From Acidimicrobiia bacterium (GTDB lineage: Bacteria; Actinomycetota; Acidimicrobiia; Acidimicrobiales; Bin134): a stretch of 64,000 nucleotides of DNA. The DNA lies in the NCBI GenBank assembly GCA_022826705.1, contig JAJDUJ010000009.1, forward strand, positions 1-64,000, written 5' to 3'. Shown here piece after piece: positions 7,873 through 48,798 of this stretch. Made by a program: the position numbers and the translations under genes. A model generated the notes under the pieces. That model worked only from the letters and a program-made list of their open reading frames with translations, had not been told where the DNA came from and did not search any database. The stretch's first letter is position 1, and each line of letters begins with the position of its first letter.

Positions 7873-9207
7873 ATGGAACCGCAAAAGGACTATGTGCTTC
7901 GCACCGTGGAGGAGCGGGGAGTGCGTCTCATCCGGCTCTGGTTCACCGACGTGCTGGGTCAGCTCAAGTCGGTGGCCATCTCTCCGGCGGAGTTGGCCGC
8001 CGCCTTCGACGAGGGACTGCAGTTCGACGGCTCGGCTATTGACGGCTTCTCCCGGGTGCAGGAGAGCGATGTGCTGGCCGTGCCCGACGCGTCCACATTC
8101 GAGCTGCTGCCGTGGGCCGACCCCGAAGAGCCCTCCGGACGCGTGTTCTGCGACATCCGCAACCCCGACGGCACCCCCTTTGAGGGCGATCCCCGCTGGG
8201 TGATGCGCCGCAGCCTGGCCAAGGCGGCCGAGATGGGCTACACGTTCTACACCGCTCCCGAAGTGGAGTTCTTCTACTTCCGGCATGGCGATCCCGACCA
8301 GCCGCTGACGCCGCTGGACAACGCCTCCTATTTCGATTTGACCACCGCGGATGTGGCCAGCCCGCTGCGCAAACGCACCATCACGATGTTGGAGGCCATG
8401 GGCATCCCGGTGGAGTACTCCTTCCACGAGGACAGCCCCAGCCAGCATGAGATCGACCTGCGCTACACCGAGGCGCTGAGCATGGCCGACAACGTGATGA
8501 CACTGAGGCTGGTGGTGCGCAAGCTGGCGCTCGACCGGGACCTGCACGCCACGTTCATGCCCAAGCCGCTCAACGGCGTACAGGGATCGGGCATGCACAC
8601 CCACATGTCGCTTTTCGAGAACGACGTCAACGCCTTCCACGACGCCGGAGACGACTACGGCCTGTCGAAAACGGCCAAGGCCTTTATCGCCGGCCTGCTG
8701 CACCACGCCCGGGAGATCACCGCGGTCACCAACCAGCTGGTGAACAGCTACAAGCGGCTGGTGACCGGTGATGAGGCGCCCACCTTCGTGTCGTGGGCCC
8801 GCAACAACCGCTCGGCGCTGGTGCGGGTGCCGGTGGTGAAGCCGGGCAAGGAATCGTCCACTCGAATCGAATACCGGGCGCTCGACTCGGCGGCCAACCC
8901 CTATTTGGCGTTCTCCGCAGTGTTGGCCGCCGGTTTGAAAGGGGTGCAGGAGGGCTATGAGCTGCCTCCTGAGGCAGCCGCCGACCTCTACACCATGACC
9001 AGGGGCCAAGCTCGGACCAAGGGTTTCGAGGAGCTGCCCATGTCGCTGTCGGAGGCTCTCGACGTGCTGGAAGAATCACCGCTGATGGTTGACGTGTTGG
9101 GCGAGCACATCCACGAGTGGTTCTTGCGCAACAAGCGGGCCGAATTCGCCGAGTACCGCCGGGAGGTCACGCCCTTCGAGCTCCGCCGGTACTTGAACAC
9201 CTGGTAG
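7873..9207 (+). CDS. glnA2: Glutamine synthetase-like protein, GlnA2 type
   Basis: A 444-residue GS-I paralogue starting MEPQKDYVLRTVEERGVRL at ATG 7873. It has DEGLQFDGSAIDGFSR, the active-site FMPKPLNGVQGSGMHTHMS and the phosphate-binding NNRSALVRVP. The tyrosine adenylylation motif of GlnA is absent: the aligned stretch reads ELPPEAAADLYTMTRGQ. It would therefore escape GlnE control, as do actinobacterial GlnA2 enzymes. It could be a true glutamine synthetase or a related gamma-glutamyl ligase. The 221-residue GlnR-like gene follows after 5 bp, so the two are likely co-transcribed. Confidence 0.92.
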   Translation: MEPQKDYVLRTVEERGVRLIRLWFTDVLGQLKSVAISPAELAAAFDEGLQFDGSAIDGFSRVQESDVLAVPDASTFELLPWADPEEPSGRVFCDIRNPDGTPFEGDPRWVMRRSLAKAAEMGYTFYTAPEVEFFYFRHGDPDQPLTPLDNASYFDLTTADVASPLRKRTITMLEAMGIPVEYSFHEDSPSQHEIDLRYTEALSMADNVMTLRLVVRKLALDRDLHATFMPKPLNGVQGSGMHTHMSLFENDVNAFHDAGDDYGLSKTAKAFIAGLLHHAREITAVTNQLVNSYKRLVTGDEAPTFVSWARNNRSALVRVPVVKPGKESSTRIEYRALDSAANPYLAFSAVLAAGLKGVQEGYELPPEAAADLYTMTRGQARTKGFEELPMSLSEALDVLEESPLMVDVLGEHIHEWFLRNKRAEFAEYRREVTPFELRRYLNTW

Positions 9208-9212
9208 TTGCT

Positions 9213-9878
9213 GTGACAGAGCGGCTGCTCGTTTTTCCCGATCCACCGCCGCCGGAGCTGGTGCGCACTCTGGATTTGGGGGGCTACAACTGGAAGGCGG
9301 TGGGCAGCGCCCAAGAGCCGGAGGGCCGGTGGCTGGGCGCGGTGGTGGCGGTGGATGAGAACCCCGAAGACGCGTTCGGATTCTGTCGTTCACTGAACCG
9401 AAGGGGCTTGGACATCCCGGTGCTGCTGCTTATCTCCGGTGCTCGTCTAGACGAACTGGAGATGCGCGACGACCTCTACACCGACTTCTGCCTCACCCCA
9501 TTCCACCAGCGGGAATTGGAAGCCCGGCTGGCCCACCTGGTGTGGCGATCGGGCACCGGGCTGCGCCCCGAGCTCATCGAATACGGCCCGCTGGTGCTGA
9601 ACGTGGAGACCTACCAGGCCACCATCACCGGCCGGCCGCTCGACCTCACCTACATGGAGTACGAATTGCTGAAGTTCCTGGCCAGTTCGCCGGGCAAGGT
9701 ATTCACCCGCGAGACGCTGCTCAGCCGGGTGTGGGGCTACGACTACTTCGGCGGCGCCCGCACCGTGGATGTCCACGTGCGCCGCCTGCGGGCCAAGCTC
9801 GGCGAGGAGCACGCCGGCCTCATCACCACCGTGCGGTCCGTCGGCTACCGCTTCGGCCTCTCCCGCTGGGAGCGCTAA
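9213..9878 (+). CDS. GlnR-like orphan OmpR-family regulator
   Basis: A 221-residue protein with an N-terminal degenerate receiver and a C-terminal OmpR/PhoB winged helix. The receiver reads GRWLGAVVAVDENPED where a phosphorylatable Asp pocket would normally be, and lacks the usual DD pair. The DNA-binding domain contains LDLTYMEYELLKFLASSPGKV and GYDYFGGARTVDVHVRRL, closely matching the GlnR winged helix of actinomycetes as I know it. GlnR controls nitrogen-assimilation genes without a cognate kinase. The adjacent glnA2, glnA and glnE support that role here. The GTG at 9213 is chosen because it follows the glnA2 stop closely; a longer form would overlap glnA2. Confidence 0.82.
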   Translation: MTERLLVFPDPPPPELVRTLDLGGYNWKAVGSAQEPEGRWLGAVVAVDENPEDAFGFCRSLNRRGLDIPVLLLISGARLDELEMRDDLYTDFCLTPFHQRELEARLAHLVWRSGTGLRPELIEYGPLVLNVETYQATITGRPLDLTYMEYELLKFLASSPGKVFTRETLLSRVWGYDYFGGARTVDVHVRRLRAKLGEEHAGLITTVRSVGYRFGLSRWER

Positions 9879-9887
9879 CTCCGTCGT

Positions 9888-10616
9888 CTATCTCGTGGCA
9901 AGATCAGGGTCATCAGACAGTGACTCCACAAAGGCTGCGTGTTCGTCACGGCTGAGGAGTTCGCTCAGCGAACGACTGCCCCCCTTTGGAACCCAGGACA
10001 AATAGTCGGTGTCATCGCGGACCAGATCGAACCGGCTCCTGTCGAGGTAGTGGTTCCAAATCCGGCGGCCAGGAACCCGCAGCGGGCCGCGGGGAGACTT
10101 TGGAACCCACCAAGTTGCAGTCTCTACGCGCTTGCCCACGCTGACGGCATCCTCCAGAGCGGGAAGAAGATCGGTATCAGCTGAAACGACAATTGCCACG
10201 TCATAGCTGTTGCTTCGAGCACCAATGGAGATGTCCAGCGCCATCATTACGTCTACGCCCTTCTCCTGCGCGACCCACTTGGCTTTACGGCCAGGGTTTG
10301 AAACCCGGTGGTACTTCAATGGACGTGTATGCACTGACACCCCGGGTGTCTCCCTCCAGGTAGCCACCTGCCGATCAAATGCTCGGCTGAGTTTGGCTCC
10401 GCTACGGCTATCAGGCTGCCCTCGGTAAACCCGGACACCGGCCAAACTGCGATGGGGATCTACCGCTTTGCCGAGATCACAGAGAAGCTCACCGAGGTGA
10501 CGGGGATGAACGCTTCCCAGCATGGATGGAGATTTGTCAACATCTCCGAACAGATCGCGAGCACAGTGGTAGACGTTCTGGTAGTCGATGAAGACGACGA
10601 CTCTCGTATCAGGCAT
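9888..10616 (-). CDS. NYN-domain (LabA/DUF88-like) putative RNase
   Basis: A protein of about 242 residues with a PIN-like NYN fold. It shows the three acidic blocks of the family: VFIDYQNVYH near the N-terminus, KGVDVMMALDIS in the middle, and VVSADTDLLPALEDAV. These aspartates bind metal in nucleases of this superfamily. The start is placed at ATG 10616; the sequence upstream codes nothing family-like. Base composition is lower in GC than the neighbours. It sits between the GlnR-like gene, convergent with it, and ridA, with no obvious partner, so it looks like an accessory insertion. Target RNA is unknown. Confidence 0.8.
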   Translation of the reverse strand: MPDTRVVVFIDYQNVYHCARDLFGDVDKSPSMLGSVHPRHLGELLCDLGKAVDPHRSLAGVRVYRGQPDSRSGAKLSRAFDRQVATWRETPGVSVHTRPLKYHRVSNPGRKAKWVAQEKGVDVMMALDISIGARSNSYDVAIVVSADTDLLPALEDAVSVGKRVETATWWVPKSPRGPLRVPGRRIWNHYLDRSRFDLVRDDTDYLSWVPKGGSRSLSELLSRDEHAAFVESLSDDPDLATR

Positions 10617-10820
10617 ACGCCACCAAGCGGTTAAAAGATAAACCCCCGCCATGCCCTGCAAAGCAGGCCAGACGGGGAAGATTGGTCACAAGATAACAGC
10701 GGACAGGACGACAAACAACCTCATTACAACAATTGCCGCAGAATGCTAGGTCATGTCGAAAGTCGCTACCGCTGGGAGCGGTGGCGGCCGACTACCTGTC
10801 CTGGTCTCCGTGATGTTGGG
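10617..10820. other. Intergenic region with a partial copy of the glnR-like 3' end
   Basis: This 204-bp gap holds no recognisable gene. At 10769-10780 it repeats CCGCTGGGAGCG, which also forms the last codons of the GlnR-like gene (9863-9874), and both copies have CTACCGC nearby upstream. The NYN gene lies between the copies. Confidence 0.35.
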
Positions 10821-11168
10821 TCAACCCGCGTAGGCCCAGAGTTCGATTTCTACTAGTGCCCCTAGGGGGAGGGCGGCGACGCCTACGGCGGAGCGGGCGG
10901 GGCGGTTGTCGCCGAAGCACTCGATGTAGGCCTGGTTCATGGCGCCGAAGTCGTCCATGTGCAGCAGGAACACGGTGGCCTTCACCACGTCGTCGAGCGT
11001 GGCCCCCTCGGTGGCCAGCACCGCCTCGGCGTTGGCCACCGCTTGGCGGAATTGCGCGATGAGCCCACCGGGCACCAGTGATCCGTCGGCGATACCGATC
11101 TGACCGGAGCAGATGAGAAAATCACCGGCGCGAACGATGGGGGAATACGGTCCGACTGGGGTGCTCAT
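10821..11168 (-). CDS. RidA family enamine/imine deaminase
   Basis: A 115-residue RidA/YjgF/YER057c protein that hydrolyses reactive enamine/imine intermediates from PLP enzymes. Family features include VGPYSPIVRAGDFLICSGQIG near the start, ATVFLLHMDDF in the middle, and the C-terminal RSAVGVAALPLGALVEIE with the substrate-binding arginine. The length is usual. The start region is unusual: the first ~35 bp of the gene exist in three tandem copies, so two short reading frames precede it and each ends in the next ATG. It is divergent from glnE. Confidence 0.93.
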   Translation of the reverse strand: MSTPVGPYSPIVRAGDFLICSGQIGIADGSLVPGGLIAQFRQAVANAEAVLATEGATLDDVVKATVFLLHMDDFGAMNQAYIECFGDNRPARSAVGVAALPLGALVEIELWAYAG

Positions 11169-11203
11169 GTCTGAGAAGAATACGGGCCTTGAGGGGTGCT
11201 CAT
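11165..11203 (-). other. Short upstream ORF 2 of ridA
   Basis: Thirteen codons encoding MSTPQGPYSSQT then TGA. The stop overlaps the ridA ATG as ATGA. It copies the RidA N-terminus (MSTPVGPYS). Translation is possible, with coupling to ridA, but no experimental evidence is available. Confidence 0.5.
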
Positions 11204-11238
11204 GTCTGAGAAGAATACGAATCTTCAGGAGTGCTCAT
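11200..11238 (-). other. Short upstream ORF 1 of ridA
   Basis: Thirteen codons encoding MSTPEDSYSSQT then TGA. Its stop overlaps the ATG of the second short frame. This is the most diverged of the three ridA-start copies. Confidence 0.45.
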
Positions 11239-11251
11239 AGCATGGGACCAT

Positions 11252-13957
11252 ATGGAAGCTGAAGGCCGAGATCAGCCGAACCGGGATGTCGAGCACCTGA
11301 TTGCCACCAGTCCATGGCCGGAGGATGCCCGTTCCCTCATCGACGACCTTGGCATCACCGACGAGCGCCGGGCCCGGGCCGCGGCCATGCTGGCCGGAGC
11401 TTCTCGCAGCATGAGCAAGGCGGTGCGGCGCGATCCCAGTCTGCTCGGAGTGCTCGACCCGCCCGCCGACTTCGCCGCCGAGAAAATCTCGCTGACCGCC
11501 CCCGACGACGATGATGCCCTCGACGGCCTGCGGCGGTGGAAGCGGCGCCAGCTTCTGCGCATCGCGCTGCGCGATCTGCTGGGCGAGGCCGACCTGGCCA
11601 CCGTGGGCCGGGAATTATCGCTGTTGGCCGACGCTTGTTTCGTCCGTGCCTTGGAGATCGCCGACGAAGGACCGCCGTTGGCCATCATCGGGATGGGCAA
11701 GCTGGGCGGCAACGAGCTGAACTACGCCAGCGATGTCGACATCGTCTTCGCCCACGAGGGCGACTCCACCGCAGCCGCCCGTCGAGCCCGGAAAGTGCTG
11801 GACATCCTGACCGCATTCACCCCCGAGGGGCAGGTGTACAGGGTGGACATCGAGTTGCGGCCCGAAGGAGGCGCTGGAGCTCTGAGCCGCACCCCAGAGG
11901 CGTTCGGAACCTACTTCGATCGCTGGGCGGTGCCCTGGGAGCGCCAGGCCTACATCAAGACTCGGCTGTCAGCCGGCGATCCTGAATTGGGCAACGCCTT
12001 TTTCGATGCCATCAAGCCCGGGGTGTGGGGCGAGAACCTCGAAGCCGACACGGTGCCCCACCTGCGAGCCCTGAAACTGCGGGTGGAGGAGTCGGCCAAG
12101 CTGAAGGGCGACCGGGAGCTCAAGAAGGGCCCTGGGGGTCTGCGAGACATCGAGTTCACCGTGCAGCTCCTGCAGTTGATTCACGGCCGCACCGATCCCA
12201 CCATCCGCTCCCCCAACACCCTCACTGCCCTTCGGCAGCTGAGTTGGGGGGAGTACATCGACCAGGCCGACGCCGTCCACTTCACCACCGCCTATATCCA
12301 TCTGCGCACGGTGGAGCATCGTGTGCAGCTCCGCGACGAGCGCCAGACCCACGAGCTGCCCACCGCCGATGCCGACCGGGAATGGGCGGCCCGAGCATCC
12401 GGCTTCGAAAGCTTGGAGGCATTCCAGGACTCCCACACCCGCCATCAGACCTCGGTTCGGGAGATCCACCAGCGGATCTTCTACCGTCAAACCCTCGACC
12501 GGATGCACGAGACCGGACTGGTGAGCGAGCTGCTTCCCGCTCACCTCGGGCAGCTGGGTTTCGCCGATCCCGATCGGGCCGCCGCCACTATCGAGCGCCT
12601 TACCGAGAACCTCGGCCGTCGGGCCAACGTGATGCAACAGGTTCTGGTCATCATGGTGGAGGCTCTGGCCACTACCCCCGATCCCGACCTAGGACTCGTC
12701 CGCCTGGCCTGGCTCTTAGACGGCTCCTTCCGAGTCGGCACCATTCTCCCGGTTTTGCGCGACTCCCCCATTGCCATCAGCGACATCGCCCGATTGCTGG
12801 GTTCCAGCCGAGTGGCCGCGGGGTGGATGCGCAACCACCCGGAGTTCGCCCGCTCGCTGATGAACCCCGAGGAGCTGGCCCATGCCCGCACTGCGGAGGC
12901 CCTGGTTGCCGAGGCCACCGAGGCCATGCAGTCAGCCGCTGGCGATCACGACCTCCAGATGGCCGAGCTGCGGCGGTTCGTGCGGCGCGAGCAGCTTCGG
13001 GTGGCGGCCCGAGACATCCTGGGGCTGGCCTCGATCATCGAGATTCCCCAGGAGCTGACCCTTATCGCCGACGCCGCGGTGGCGGCCGCCGTTGACTCGC
13101 TGGCCCCAGAGGTGCCCTTTGCTGTCATCGGAATGGGGCGCTATGGGGGCCTTGACCTTTCCTATGCCTCTGATCTGGATGTGATCTTCGTGTACGAGGG
13201 GGCGGGCTCTGATGACGCCAGGGCGGCCAACCGCACCGCCCGGGGCCTGCTCAAAGAAATCGGGGCTCAAACCGCCGAAGGCCGAGCCTGGGAGATTGAT
13301 GCTCGGTTGCGCCCTGAGGGGGAGAACGGACAGCTCGCCCGATCGCTGGAGGGGTACCAGCGGTACTACGAAGAGCGGGGTCAGCTATGGGAGCGCCAGT
13401 CTCTGCTCAAGCGCCGCTTCGTGGCGGGAGACGCCGATCTGGGAAACCGATTCCTCCAGTTGGCCGACAAGTGGTGCTATCAGCCAGAGTTCAGCGAGGC
13501 CGAGGCTGAAGAGATCCGGGTGATGAAGCGCCGCATCGAAGCTGAGCGCCTGGGCACCGGCAGCAAGGCCCGGGATGTGAAGCTCGGCGCGGGCGGGCTC
13601 AGCGACATCGAGTTCACCGTGCAGCTCATGCAGCTTCAGCACGGATTCGGAAGGACTTCGATCCGCGACAATCGCACGCTGCCCGCGCTGGCCGGGTTGT
13701 CGGAACACAACCTGCTGGACATCGGCGACCGGGCCACCCTGGATGTGGGCTATCGCTTCTGCCAGCGGTTCCGCAACGCCCGCTACCACCTCTCGGGACT
13801 GTCGTCGGACGTGTTCCCCGACGACGACCACGAGGAGCTGTTGCTGGCCCGACGACTCGGCTATCCCAGCAACCGGGACTTAGAAGCCGACTACCAGGAG
13901 ATCACCGACGCCGTTCGAGAAGTGACCGACCGTCTGCTCTACGGAGAGTCTGACTGA
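11252..13957 (+). CDS. glnE: Bifunctional glutamine synthetase adenylyltransferase/deadenylase
   Basis: About 900 residues with two nucleotidyltransferase domains that add AMP to, or remove it from, GlnA tyrosine. Each has the family signature: IGMGKLGGNELNYASDVDIVF near residue 150, and IGMGRYGGLDLSYASDLDVIF near residue 630. The linker regions include the GlnD-like segment ELKKGPGGLRDIEFTVQL and its repeat KLGAGGLSDIEFTVQLMQL. The ATG at 11252 is preferred; a GTG at 11231 is in frame but lies inside the ridA repeat. The target enzyme GlnA is encoded 4 kb upstream. The 3' end overlaps the convergent molybdenum-hydroxylase-like gene by 19 bp. Confidence 0.95.
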   Translation: MEAEGRDQPNRDVEHLIATSPWPEDARSLIDDLGITDERRARAAAMLAGASRSMSKAVRRDPSLLGVLDPPADFAAEKISLTAPDDDDALDGLRRWKRRQLLRIALRDLLGEADLATVGRELSLLADACFVRALEIADEGPPLAIIGMGKLGGNELNYASDVDIVFAHEGDSTAAARRARKVLDILTAFTPEGQVYRVDIELRPEGGAGALSRTPEAFGTYFDRWAVPWERQAYIKTRLSAGDPELGNAFFDAIKPGVWGENLEADTVPHLRALKLRVEESAKLKGDRELKKGPGGLRDIEFTVQLLQLIHGRTDPTIRSPNTLTALRQLSWGEYIDQADAVHFTTAYIHLRTVEHRVQLRDERQTHELPTADADREWAARASGFESLEAFQDSHTRHQTSVREIHQRIFYRQTLDRMHETGLVSELLPAHLGQLGFADPDRAAATIERLTENLGRRANVMQQVLVIMVEALATTPDPDLGLVRLAWLLDGSFRVGTILPVLRDSPIAISDIARLLGSSRVAAGWMRNHPEFARSLMNPEELAHARTAEALVAEATEAMQSAAGDHDLQMAELRRFVRREQLRVAARDILGLASIIEIPQELTLIADAAVAAAVDSLAPEVPFAVIGMGRYGGLDLSYASDLDVIFVYEGAGSDDARAANRTARGLLKEIGAQTAEGRAWEIDARLRPEGENGQLARSLEGYQRYYEERGQLWERQSLLKRRFVAGDADLGNRFLQLADKWCYQPEFSEAEAEEIRVMKRRIEAERLGTGSKARDVKLGAGGLSDIEFTVQLMQLQHGFGRTSIRDNRTLPALAGLSEHNLLDIGDRATLDVGYRFCQRFRNARYHLSGLSSDVFPDDDHEELLLARRLGYPSNRDLEADYQEITDAVREVTDRLLYGESD

Positions 13958-15495
13958 GCATCCAGCCGACCTGTCGGCCAGTCGGGGGGATGGCCGGCGG
14001 CCCGCCAGGTGGCTGCGGCCACGGCGGCGAACACGGCGTCGGAGCAGTTGACCGGCGGGCCGTCGGACGGCTCGATCTCCACCTCCACCGGGGGCATCCG
14101 AGATGCGGGCACGACGCCGAAAGAGCGGATAGTGAGGTCGTGGACCTCGCCGTCGGGGCCGACGGTGAGTGCCTCGGAGGTCACCCAGCTATAGGCCATA
14201 TGCGCGGCGCCGATGCAATAGGAGCGCAGCACGACCTCATCCAGCGGGTCGCCGCCGTGTACCTGAATCCGCAGGCTGCCTCCATGCCACTCGGCTCGGG
14301 CCGAGCCCCCGCTCGGAGAGGTGATCGGCTGAAAGCCATCGCCCAACGCGCTCAGCGCTACGGCGGCCTCAACCCACCCAGCCCCCCGAATGGCGATCGA
14401 GGTGGGAGGTCCGGCGATGTCCACTTCTTCTACCGCCAGACCCGGGCCAACCGACGCGACGGCATCGGCCACCCCCGGCGTGCGCACTACCCGAACCACC
14501 CCTTTGCCATCGGCGTTGATCCCAATGGCCACCGGCGGGCGTTTGGGACCGTGCCGCACGGTGTCCTCACGAGACCACAGCACCCGGACCGGACGGCCGT
14601 GCTCATCGGCCAACCGGCGGGCCACCTCCGGCAGCGGAGACGCCAGCTTGGCGCCGAATGCGCCGCCGTTGGCCAGTGGACTAGCCGGCTCGCCGCCGGG
14701 TACACACCACGAAGCGTCGGTTTCCAGATAGGCGGGCTCCACCCACGAGGTACGAAAGCGCACTGTCCAGTCGCCTTCAGGGAATTCCAACGGCATAGGC
14801 AGCTCTGTCGGTGTGCGTCGGCCCTGCACCTTTCCCGCTGCGGCCCGAGCCTCGGCCACCGTCTCTCCCAGCACCCAGCCGCCTCGGCCATCGGACAGCG
14901 CCACCAGCGCCCCGTTGGGCCCGGTGTCGTCGGCAAAACCGCCCTCTCCCAAGGCCACATCTGGCCCCACGGCCTGGGCAACGCCGCCCTCGATCTCGGC
15001 TCGTCGGGCCGCCTCGGTCCAATCCCGACCGGGGGCGTCGGCGCCGAAGTGCTCCCACGCCTCCAAGATGGTCTGCCATCCCGTGCAGCGACACAGATGG
15101 GCCGCGAGCGCGGTGGCCGCAGATGAGCGGGGGCGATCTTGGTCCAATCGGGCATCCAGACCGGCGAGGCGCATGATGATGCCAGGGGTGCAGAAGCCGC
15201 ATTGGCTGGCGCCGGCCGCGCAAAACGCCTCCCCCCAAGCGGCGCAGGTGTCGGATGGCAGCCCGGCCAGCGTGGTGATCTCCCGGCCGGCCACCCGGCG
15301 GGCGGGGGTCACGCAGGACACTCGAGGCTTCCCATCAACCCACACGGTGCAGCAACCGCATTGTCCTTGCGGGCTGCATCCGTCTTTCACCGTGCGGATG
15401 CCAAGCCGGTCGCGCAACACCTCCATGAGCGATGTGCCGTCGTCGGGCACTTCCACGGAGCGACCGTCGACGGTGAACTCCAAAGCGGCGGCCAT
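13939..15495 (-). CDS. Compact [2Fe-2S]/molybdenum hydroxylase-like fusion protein
   Basis: A 518-residue protein. Residues 1-160 form a CoxS/XdhC-type double [2Fe-2S] domain with CSPQGQCGCC and the C-terminal set CGFCTPG and HLCRCTGW. The remaining ~350 residues carry scattered pieces of a xanthine-dehydrogenase-type molybdopterin subunit: NGGAFGAK, SREDTVRHGPKRPP and a C-terminal GAAHMAYSWVTSEAL. A normal large subunit has about 750 residues, so most of it is missing. The active-site GVGE loop is not recognised; the aligned end reads PPVNCSDAVF. It may be a reduced paralogue with altered chemistry or a decayed gene, but the frame is intact. No FAD-subunit gene is nearby. Confidence 0.75.
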   Translation of the reverse strand: MAAALEFTVDGRSVEVPDDGTSLMEVLRDRLGIRTVKDGCSPQGQCGCCTVWVDGKPRVSCVTPARRVAGREITTLAGLPSDTCAAWGEAFCAAGASQCGFCTPGIIMRLAGLDARLDQDRPRSSAATALAAHLCRCTGWQTILEAWEHFGADAPGRDWTEAARRAEIEGGVAQAVGPDVALGEGGFADDTGPNGALVALSDGRGGWVLGETVAEARAAAGKVQGRRTPTELPMPLEFPEGDWTVRFRTSWVEPAYLETDASWCVPGGEPASPLANGGAFGAKLASPLPEVARRLADEHGRPVRVLWSREDTVRHGPKRPPVAIGINADGKGVVRVVRTPGVADAVASVGPGLAVEEVDIAGPPTSIAIRGAGWVEAAVALSALGDGFQPITSPSGGSARAEWHGGSLRIQVHGGDPLDEVVLRSYCIGAAHMAYSWVTSEALTVGPDGEVHDLTIRSFGVVPASRMPPVEVEIEPSDGPPVNCSDAVFAAVAAATWRAAGHPPDWPTGRLDAQSDSP

Positions 15496-46644: not shown

Positions 46645-48798
46645 GTGCCCATGTCTTTTCCGGGGAGGCTCAGGACAGAAAGGGCGGTCGCGCTGGCGGT
46701 TGTGGCGCTTGCCGCCGTTGTGGTTGTGCCCGTTGTCTCAGTTTCGGTTTCGGCTCAGAGCGTTGCCGATGTGGAGGCCCGGGACAGTCTTATCGCCGAC
46801 CAGGAGAACTTGCTGAACACCTATCGGTGCCTGTTCGGCGTCGACACCGGCGTGGTCCCGGGCGGGTGCCCTAACCCGGATCGGGTGTCTCCCGGGGTAG
46901 CGCCGGAGAGCCCGACGAAGTTGGACGTCATGGTGCGGGACGAGCTCATCGGTAGCCAGGAGGCGCTGTTGAACGTGTACCGGTGCCGGTTCGACGTCGA
47001 CACTCAGCTTGTGCCCGGCGGCTGCGTCGACGGCGCCCCGGCGCCCCCCGAGATTGTGCCCGCGGACCCGGTCGCTGCTCCTGCTGTGACCGCTGGGCGG
47101 GAGCATTCGTGCGCGATCAGAGCCGACCGGAGCGTCGTGTGCTGGGGTGATGGCGAGCTCGGCCAGCTCGACGCCCCGTCGGGCCAGTTCAGCACTATTT
47201 CGGCGGGATGGGAGCACTCCTGTGCGATCAGAGTCGACTGGACCGCGGTGTGCTGGGGCCTCGACCGCGCCGGGAAGGCCGACGCCCCATCGGGCAGGCT
47301 GATCGAGGTCTCCGCGGGCGGTTCGCACTCCTGCGGGATCAGAGCCGACCGCACCGCGGTTTGCTGGGGCTTGAACTCCAGCGGCCAGGCCGACGCCCCA
47401 TCGGGCGAGTTCGCCGACATTTCCGCGGGAGGTTTCTACTCGTGCGGGATCAGAGCCGACCGCACCGCTGTCTGCTGGGGCCAGAACACCCATGGCCAGG
47501 CCGACGCCCCATCGGGCGAGTTCCTGGCGGTCTCCGCGGGATGGCGGCATACCTGCGGGATCAAAGCGGACCGCACCGCGGTCTGCTGGGGCGACAATGC
47601 TTCGGGCCGGGCCGATGCCCCTTCGGGCGAGTTCACGGATATCTCGGCCGACGATTTCCACTCCTGCGGGATCAGAGCCGACCGCACCGCGGTCTGCTGG
47701 GGCAGCAGCCCCAAAGGCAAGACCGATTCCCCATCTGCGGAGTATGCGGACGTCGCCGCGGGCGGCGGGCATTCCTGCGCCATCTCAGCCTCGTATTCCA
47801 TCGTGTGCTGGGGCGATCATGCAGGCGGGCGGGAAGACGCTTTCTTCTCCGGGGACATCGGCGGCCCCGAGGACTGCCCGGACGCCGGAGGGGCGTCCAC
47901 CGTCCCGATCGACAGCGACGGCGACGGGGTGGCCGACCAGTGCTCGGCGACGTACACCGAGGTGGCCGCCGGCACAGCCCATTCCTGCGCCATCCGGGCC
48001 GACCAGACCGTGCAGTGCTGGGGGAGCAACACCAACCACAAGGGCGACACAGTTGGCCAGTCGGCCGCCCCCGAGGGGACGTTCACCGCTGTTTCCGCGG
48101 GCCGGAACAGCTCGTGCGCCATCCGCGCCGACCAGACCGTCGAGTGCTGGGGCGAGCCGATCCTCGACGGATCCGGCAACCAGGCCGCGCCGCCCGACGG
48201 GGAGTTCACCGCGGTGGCCGCCGGCGGGCCCATAGCCTGCGCCATCCGCGCCGACCAGACCGTGGAATGCTGGGGGCGGATCGTCGAATCGTGCCTGTTG
48301 GGAGGGCCGTGCGAGTACACCGACATCGGAACATTCGACGATACGTTTACAGCCATACTCGCCACCCCCCAGTTCGCCTGCGGAGTCACGACCGGCCGCA
48401 AGTTCGAATGCTGGGGATACCGGCCGGCAATCCGCTCCTTCGGCCGCGGCTTCACAGGGGCATTCGTCGCCACCTCGTTGGGCGAATCGCACTTCTGCGG
48501 GCTCAGACCAGGCCGCGCCGCGGTCTGCTGGGGCGACAACGCCCACGGCCAAGCCGACGCCCCACCGGGCGAATTCTCCTCAATCTCAGTCGGAGACTCC
48601 CACACCTGCGGAATCACACGACCCGGCCGCGCCGCGGTCTGCTGGGGCGACAACGCCCACGGCCAAGCCGACGTCCCACCGGGCGAATTCTCCTCGATCT
48701 CAGCGGGAGCCTCCCACACCTGCGGAATCCGCCCCGAAGGGAACATCGTCTGCTGGGGCGACAACGCCCACGGCCAAGCCGAGCAGCCGACCGGCTGA
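46645..48798 (+). CDS. Secreted RCC1-repeat (beta-propeller-like) protein
   Basis: A 717-residue protein. Residues 1-38 are a signal peptide (VALAVVALAAVVVVPVVSVS). Two copies of an RDxLIxxQExLLNxYRCxF motif with a following VPGGC cover about 45-125. Then 14 RCC1-type repeats of about 38 residues follow, each built as AGxxHSCGIRADRTAVCWG with a pair of cysteines 9-10 residues apart. Between repeats 7 and 8 a DSDGDGVADQC segment resembles a calcium-binding loop. The last repeats are nearly identical at the DNA level. It probably binds a ligand or partner outside the cell; function unknown. Confidence 0.85.
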   Translation: MPMSFPGRLRTERAVALAVVALAAVVVVPVVSVSVSAQSVADVEARDSLIADQENLLNTYRCLFGVDTGVVPGGCPNPDRVSPGVAPESPTKLDVMVRDELIGSQEALLNVYRCRFDVDTQLVPGGCVDGAPAPPEIVPADPVAAPAVTAGREHSCAIRADRSVVCWGDGELGQLDAPSGQFSTISAGWEHSCAIRVDWTAVCWGLDRAGKADAPSGRLIEVSAGGSHSCGIRADRTAVCWGLNSSGQADAPSGEFADISAGGFYSCGIRADRTAVCWGQNTHGQADAPSGEFLAVSAGWRHTCGIKADRTAVCWGDNASGRADAPSGEFTDISADDFHSCGIRADRTAVCWGSSPKGKTDSPSAEYADVAAGGGHSCAISASYSIVCWGDHAGGREDAFFSGDIGGPEDCPDAGGASTVPIDSDGDGVADQCSATYTEVAAGTAHSCAIRADQTVQCWGSNTNHKGDTVGQSAAPEGTFTAVSAGRNSSCAIRADQTVECWGEPILDGSGNQAAPPDGEFTAVAAGGPIACAIRADQTVECWGRIVESCLLGGPCEYTDIGTFDDTFTAILATPQFACGVTTGRKFECWGYRPAIRSFGRGFTGAFVATSLGESHFCGLRPGRAAVCWGDNAHGQADAPPGEFSSISVGDSHTCGITRPGRAAVCWGDNAHGQADVPPGEFSSISAGASHTCGIRPEGNIVCWGDNAHGQAEQPTG
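48511..48694 (+). repeat. Near-identical tandem repeats in the RCC1 gene
   Basis: The 70-bp segments 48511-48580 and 48625-48694 differ at one base; the period is 114 bp, which is 38 codons. A third copy of the 3' part lies downstream. This indicates recent duplication of blades. Confidence 0.85.

Follow-up and report, generated by a model that had tools for sequence, protein, structure and literature searches.

Tandem copies of a putative leaderless promoter-start at ridA in an Acidimicrobiia bacterium, and start-codon ladders at other genes of its genus

The window analysed here, the whole stretch of 64,000 nucleotides from positions 1 to 64,000 of contig JAJDUJ010000009.1 of an Acidimicrobiia bacterium (GCA_022826705.1; G000 among the genomes compared), contains ridA, a gene of the Rid family, divergently oriented to glnE, and between the two genes the start of ridA is repeated in tandem (Table 1).

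Table 1. Features of the ridA-glnE start region, in positions of the window.
Feature	Position	Strand	Basis
ridA (Rid family / YjgF-YER057c-UK114), 115 aa	10821..11168	-	Pfam PF01042, E 3.5e-33
Third copy: the first 35 bp of ridA itself (codons 1-11 plus two bases)	11134..11168	-	TRF, sequence
Repeat unit 2, ATG at 11203, mini-ORF MSTPQGPYSSQT, TGA overlapping the ridA ATG	11169..11203	-	sequence
Repeat unit 1, ATG at 11238, mini-ORF MSTPEDSYSSQT, TGA overlapping the unit 2 ATG	11204..11238	-	sequence
Putative -10 box TATTCT, 8 nt before the ridA ATG	11177..11182	-	sequence
Putative -10 box TATTCT, 8 nt before the unit 2 ATG	11212..11217	-	sequence
Original (P1) -10 box TATGGT, 8 nt before the first ATG, overlapping the A of the glnE ATG	11247..11252	-	sequence
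Putative glnE -10 box TAGCAT, 8 nt before the glnE ATG	11238..11243	+	sequence
glnE (glutamine synthetase adenylyltransferase), divergent from ridA	11252..13957	+	NCBIfam NF010707, 717.9 bits

The tandem repetition of the ridA start, first noticed in the initial annotation, was recovered by TRF (11158-11238, period 35, 2.3 copies, 89% match, score 127), and the 26-bp core of the repeat, which occurs twice exactly, had 0 matches in 100 dinucleotide shuffles. Minus-strand ATGs are found at 11238, 11203 and 11168, the last being that of ridA, and the ATG of glnE on the opposite strand is 13 bp from the first of them. The earlier count of three copies of about 35 bp stands for the two full upstream units; the third is ridA coding sequence, which resembles the unit only over its first ~27 bp. 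Similarly, a TATTCT box described before every ATG is present 8 nt before the second ATG and that of ridA, but the first has TATGGT at the same spacing. The two upstream ATGs do open 12-codon reading frames, each with a TGA that overlaps the next ATG, and this arrangement is automatic because 35 is 2 mod 3 and the unit begins with ATGA. Only two arrays with periods of 15-80 that are not multiples of 3 were found in 445 kb of this genome, and the ridA array is the sole one of them to span a start. Elsewhere, 111/114-bp repeat arrays at 47160-48782 of the window apparently encode RCC1-like repeats, and an open frame of 24188 aa reported around a tRNA-synthetase-like match (G000:C6:232105-232347) may be a masked-base run.

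The divergent ridA-glnE pair is present in 21 of the 22 genus genomes compared, and no glnE-like match beside ridA was found in the more distant loci examined. The copy-number variation among relatives that was to be looked for is indeed present: 13 of the 21 species have one unit, three have two (G006, G009 and G021) and five have three (this genome, G002, G003, G011 and G018). In 18 of the 21 species the start-to-start distance between ridA and glnE is exactly 14, 49 or 84, corresponding to one, two or three units in steps of 35 without insertions or deletions, and the start codons of single-unit species are 13 bp apart; within the 35-bp units themselves there are no indels in any of the eight multi-unit species. 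Of the remaining species, G004 has its glnE start located elsewhere, and the distance is lengthened by separate duplications in G012 (27; a 13-bp tandem duplication in the ridA-glnE spacer, L257) and in G017 (23; an in-frame 9-bp duplication at the same spot, L258). The 13-bp copy of G012 also opens a short ORF before glnE.

In all 21 species a TANNNT box precedes the ridA start by exactly 8 nt (G017 being counted at its first ATG). In Actinobacteria, TANNNT shortly before the start codon has been published as a mark of leaderless genes (PMC3160421, PMC3898074), and ridA carries it at the characteristic distance of ~10-14 nt upstream of the start codon in 21/21 species. The same signature is visible genome-wide: among 260-273 long ORFs in each of two genomes, TANNNT occurs 6-8 nt before candidate starts at 3.8/2.0/2.3% in this genome, versus 0.00-0.05% at internal positions, and G007 is similar (internal rate in both genomes overall, 0.00-0.07%). 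A Shine-Dalgarno peak accompanies the TANNNT peak before starts in both genomes. Because the box is kept in all species and such boxes are enriched before starts, ridA looks like a leaderless gene, and the description of the array as copies of a promoter plus a start agrees with the sequences.

The boxes differ according to unit number. In single-unit species the ridA box is TATGAT, TATCAT or TAATAT, and the proximal box of multi-unit species is TATTCT or TATCCT (TATNCT in 8/8). The original box, P1, is TATGAT in 10/13 single-unit rows versus 1/8 multi-unit species (Fisher p 0.0075, kinship ignored), a comparison to be read with the provisos that the species are not phylogenetically independent and that the alleles recombine. 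The old ridA -10 lacks TANNNT in three of the eight multi-unit species; the glnE box TAGCAT is kept in all eight and, read by eye, in most single-unit species. Decay has also affected the mini-ORFs, since 7/13 upstream unit starts are ACG. As the proximal box is conserved and the upstream starts and old -10 have decayed, we conclude that the putative proximal promoter-start is what matters at ridA.

Start arrays are not confined to ridA. Searches with ATGAGC-N29-ATGAGC-N29-ATGAGC, followed by variable-gap versions of ATGAGC, ATGACC and ATGGCC, revealed further arrays at the starts of holA (unit length 35), pyrC-like (23), aroQ-like (38), aroB-like (35), rimI-like (35), lnt-like (41), trpB-like (38) and other genes (17 to 50); apart from holA, these names are what we take the genes to be from recognition of their translations. 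The pyrC-like ladder (G000:C6:128418, L283; also L279, L284 and L295) consists of two or three copies of 23-nt mini-cistrons before a dihydroorotase-like gene in four species. In most such arrays the first ATG is overlapped by the TGA of the upstream gene. The two ATGA patterns yielded, within the genus, a hand-curated list of 22 distinct array loci that misses two-copy arrays, and their unit lengths are 2 mod 3 at 16, 1 mod 3 at one and in frame at five (p ~0.0003 for the 2-mod-3 excess, whether tested against 1/3 or as 16 v 1). Exactly 35 nt is the length at 7 of the 16 loci in the 2-mod-3 class, and the microhomology explanation given below covers ridA only. At trpB (L398) and elsewhere, another junction geometry shifts the frame rule, the mini-ORF ending at a duplicated stop just before the next start. 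The ATGGCC search had been meant as a control; almost all its matches are coding, but it is no clean negative control because the genuine 38-bp ladder at trpB turned up in it. At several loci, among them most of the operon loci examined, the unit combines the 5' end of the downstream gene with the 3' end of the upstream gene, and units of different loci are at most 0.45 identical outside ATGAGC; being hybrids of adjacent genes and unrelated between loci, the units arose locally. Repeats of other kinds were also encountered: two genomes of the same order (G045 and G218) have many arrays each of related 41- or 44-bp units (ATGAGCCGCACGGCGCGAAGC... and ATGAGCACCAGCGAGGACCG...), possibly a dispersed MIRU-like family, and G007 has 7.7 near-identical 35-bp copies with an inverted repeat (CCCGGCGATAATCCGCCGGG; L128, 220-487), apparently away from a gene start.

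The folP-holA junction was read in all 20 genomes with holA, without selection for repeats (L413-L432). Mini-cistrons are absent from six species, which have a plain ATGA overlap; nine species carry a single one and five carry two, and this genome has one, MSAPITGWELPQ (G000:C6:11414). In the holA arrays detected by pattern, the leading ATGAGC belongs to the tail of folP and was rejected as a mini-ORF. The mini-cistrons are exactly 35 nt long in 18/19 cases and 44 nt in one, and in 19/19 an ATG, GTG or TTG overlaps the preceding TGA and an in-frame TGA overlaps the next start. They encode 16 distinct peptides with little in common past the first residues, and contain no premature stops (chance ~0.016 for random codons of the same composition). 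Termination-reinitiation coupling needs an overlap or a very short distance (PMC10666635), and for this reason the folP-holA junctions look as if they may be held by selection for hand-over rather than for the peptide; the operon-ladder data fit a neutral, frame-filtered origin equally well. The frame-filtered ladder lengths are as expected if ribosomes hand over between tiny reading frames. A reading of all 35-bp ladders as promoter duplications was dropped, since holA, inside an operon, has the same geometry.

Three alternatives for the ridA array were weighed. It is barely credible that the array arose from misassembly of a short repeat in a metagenome-assembled genome: the source is apparently a draft of 31 contigs, but the copies differ from one another and seven other genomes, assembled separately, carry two or three diverged units at the same locus, which excludes a simple artefact. 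The initial annotation had suggested that ATGA coupling could tune the level of RidA; on this view ribosomes initiating at the first ATG would reach ridA by two ATGA reinitiations and the number of units would set the output. Such a ladder would profit from the intact ORFs and overlaps of this genome, from the retention of the same geometry at folP-holA and from the over-representation of leaderless RTGA-coupled small ORFs in M. tuberculosis (PMC4633059), yet it is not borne out at ridA. The full ATGA chain exists in this genome only among the multi-unit species; in each of the other seven, one upstream start per array is ACG; the three two-unit species lack a mini-ORF start altogether, and the upstream ORF remaining in G003 and G018 runs past the next start and overlaps ridA out of frame. 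Coupling is an unlikely account of the ridA array; at holA, pyrC, aroQ, aroB and trpB of the same genus it has good support.

Neutral slippage at a duplication-prone site, in which the units are harmless and the promoters and mini-ORFs of the array irrelevant, would accommodate the independent 13-bp and 9-bp duplications in the same place, the commonness of single-unit species and the recurrence of short tandem duplications at starts in the genus. It is made rather improbable by the absence of any indel from the 35-bp units of eight species, by the retention of the proximal TATNCT in 8/8 while the flanking positions and the old promoter decay, and by the frame bias of the other arrays.

The probable explanation, favoured because the ATGA chain is not conserved at ridA, is that a compact leaderless promoter-start module was duplicated in tandem to give the array, and so moved away from glnE, by way of microhomology. 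In the single-unit state the two predicted promoters would overlap, because the starts lie on opposite strands 13 bp apart and each box is 8 nt before its ATG. One TAT opens the ridA -10 at position -14 and another, the Tyr8 codon, lies at +22, a distance of exactly 35 nt. The duplication probably took place between these two TATs; given that spacing, the unit would carry TATnnn, 8 nt and ATG, recreating TANNNT before the new ATG. In the last 9 nt (right half) of the unit, 6/9 match the upstream flank of the single-unit species G019 and G008, and 1-3/9 match ridA coding sequence. RidA would then most likely be made from a transcript starting at the proximal copy, with relief from the glnE overlap as the presumed advantage, and the older upstream starts would become optional, often turning into ACG, while the old -10 decays and the glnE box stays. 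In this genome, where both upstream ATGs are intact, a ribosome on a longer transcript could still cross the two 12-codon ORFs by ATGA reinitiation. Several observations count against the promoter relocation: the proximal -10 is short and lacks an established -35, the 8-nt spacing slightly exceeds the 6 nt most common in these genomes, both upstream ATGs and the entire ATGA chain persist in G000 itself as coupling predicts, and 13 species live with one unit, which speaks against an advantage.

The one-, two- and three-unit alleles have apparently been swapped between species by recombination. Unit number is discordant with a tree of rpoB, gyrA and leuS, in which G000 and G018 (three units) group with G005 (one), and G003 (three) with G013 (one). 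G005 and G013 are identical to each other over 71 bp flanking the site (two windows of 35-36 bp), and the sisters of each carry another allele; the identity of these two species to G000 is 70-84% at the flanks of the site and ~98% in the glnE blocks just beyond. Since unit number departs from the species tree and the G005 and G013 flanks are identical, local exchange of ridA alleles between species would be the simplest reading. The rpoB-gyrA-leuS tree was used instead of a tree of the ridA-glnE region alone, which was poorly resolved, partly because one G007 copy has a broken glnE, and was dropped. That genome has a ~3.1-kb tandem duplication with two equally matching ridA copies (L254; G007:C1, about 1106981 and 1110067), in one of which glnE is truncated or broken. 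Positions 8001-14000 of the window are mostly 95-97% identical to G008, versus ~80-88% outside, and differ again in the ridA-glnE spacer; by these identities, this is a putative recombined tract between species. A gene for an NYN-domain protein (PF01936) lies at 9888-10661 on the minus strand of the window, and G013 alone among the relatives compared has it within the 10-kb surroundings of ridA.

The ridA array resembles several known systems in part. Leaderless RTGA-coupled small ORFs, which are over-represented in mycobacteria (Shell et al. 2015, PMC4633059), likewise consist of a short ORF at the presumed end of a leaderless transcript with a TGA overlapping the next ATG, an overlap found in both mini-ORFs of the window. 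The ridA short ORFs differ in being copied in tandem from the 5' end of ridA itself and arranged in series, in varying in number between species, and in that conservation of the small ORF in relatives was not found at ridA (7/13 upstream starts being ACG). MIRUs vary in tandem copy number. As summarized in PMC12548453 (citing Supply et al. 1997), they are small coupled ORFs with 4-nt start/stop overlaps, sited at start codons, and mobile repeats described at many intergenic sites with little disturbance downstream. Measured against that summary, the internal ORF at ridA is similarly joined to the next by a 4-nt overlap, but the units of different loci here are local duplications without homology (identity at most 0.45); the siting of MIRUs between co-directional operon genes is absent at ridA, where glnE is divergent, and present at holA, pyrC, aroQ and others. 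To the extent of that summary, the operon ladders have their closest analogue in MIRUs. The ridA array partly works like RTGA-coupled ORFs and MIRUs, and by the features tested is a member of neither class.

Two further comparisons concern the overlaps and the boxes. ATGA overlaps are shared with coupled gene pairs (PMC6728339, PMC10666635), and the dependence of coupling on an overlap or short distance would account for unit lengths in which stop and start stay together; the two studies deal with pairs of genes, whereas the ladders here are serial units, and a text search of them found no mention of duplication. In having TANNNT ~6-8 nt before the start and no Shine-Dalgarno sequence, ridA is like the leaderless genes of Actinobacteria (PMC3160421, PMC3898074), from which it differs by tandem duplication of the module beside a divergent, overlapping one. 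No description of start duplications of such a kind was found in the literature searched, a body whose coverage leaves out most subscription journals.

The ridA locus is a natural series in which one gene start is found with one, two or three promoter-start copies, and as such it would illustrate the copying and relocation of a leaderless promoter in one small event whose extent microhomology dictates. The wider class of arrays (holA, pyrC, aroQ, aroB, trpB and others) provides a natural test of termination-reinitiation: the peptides are free to diverge, whereas unit length, start and stop are locked. It is conceivable, though we advance this tentatively, that serial mini-cistrons arise repeatedly in this genus, and probably in the order, by tandem duplication across an overlapping stop and start under a frame filter, and that their number (0 to at least 5) sets the translation passed from gene to gene; such ladders might then be evolvable translational relays, of which ridA would be the leaderless-promoter version.
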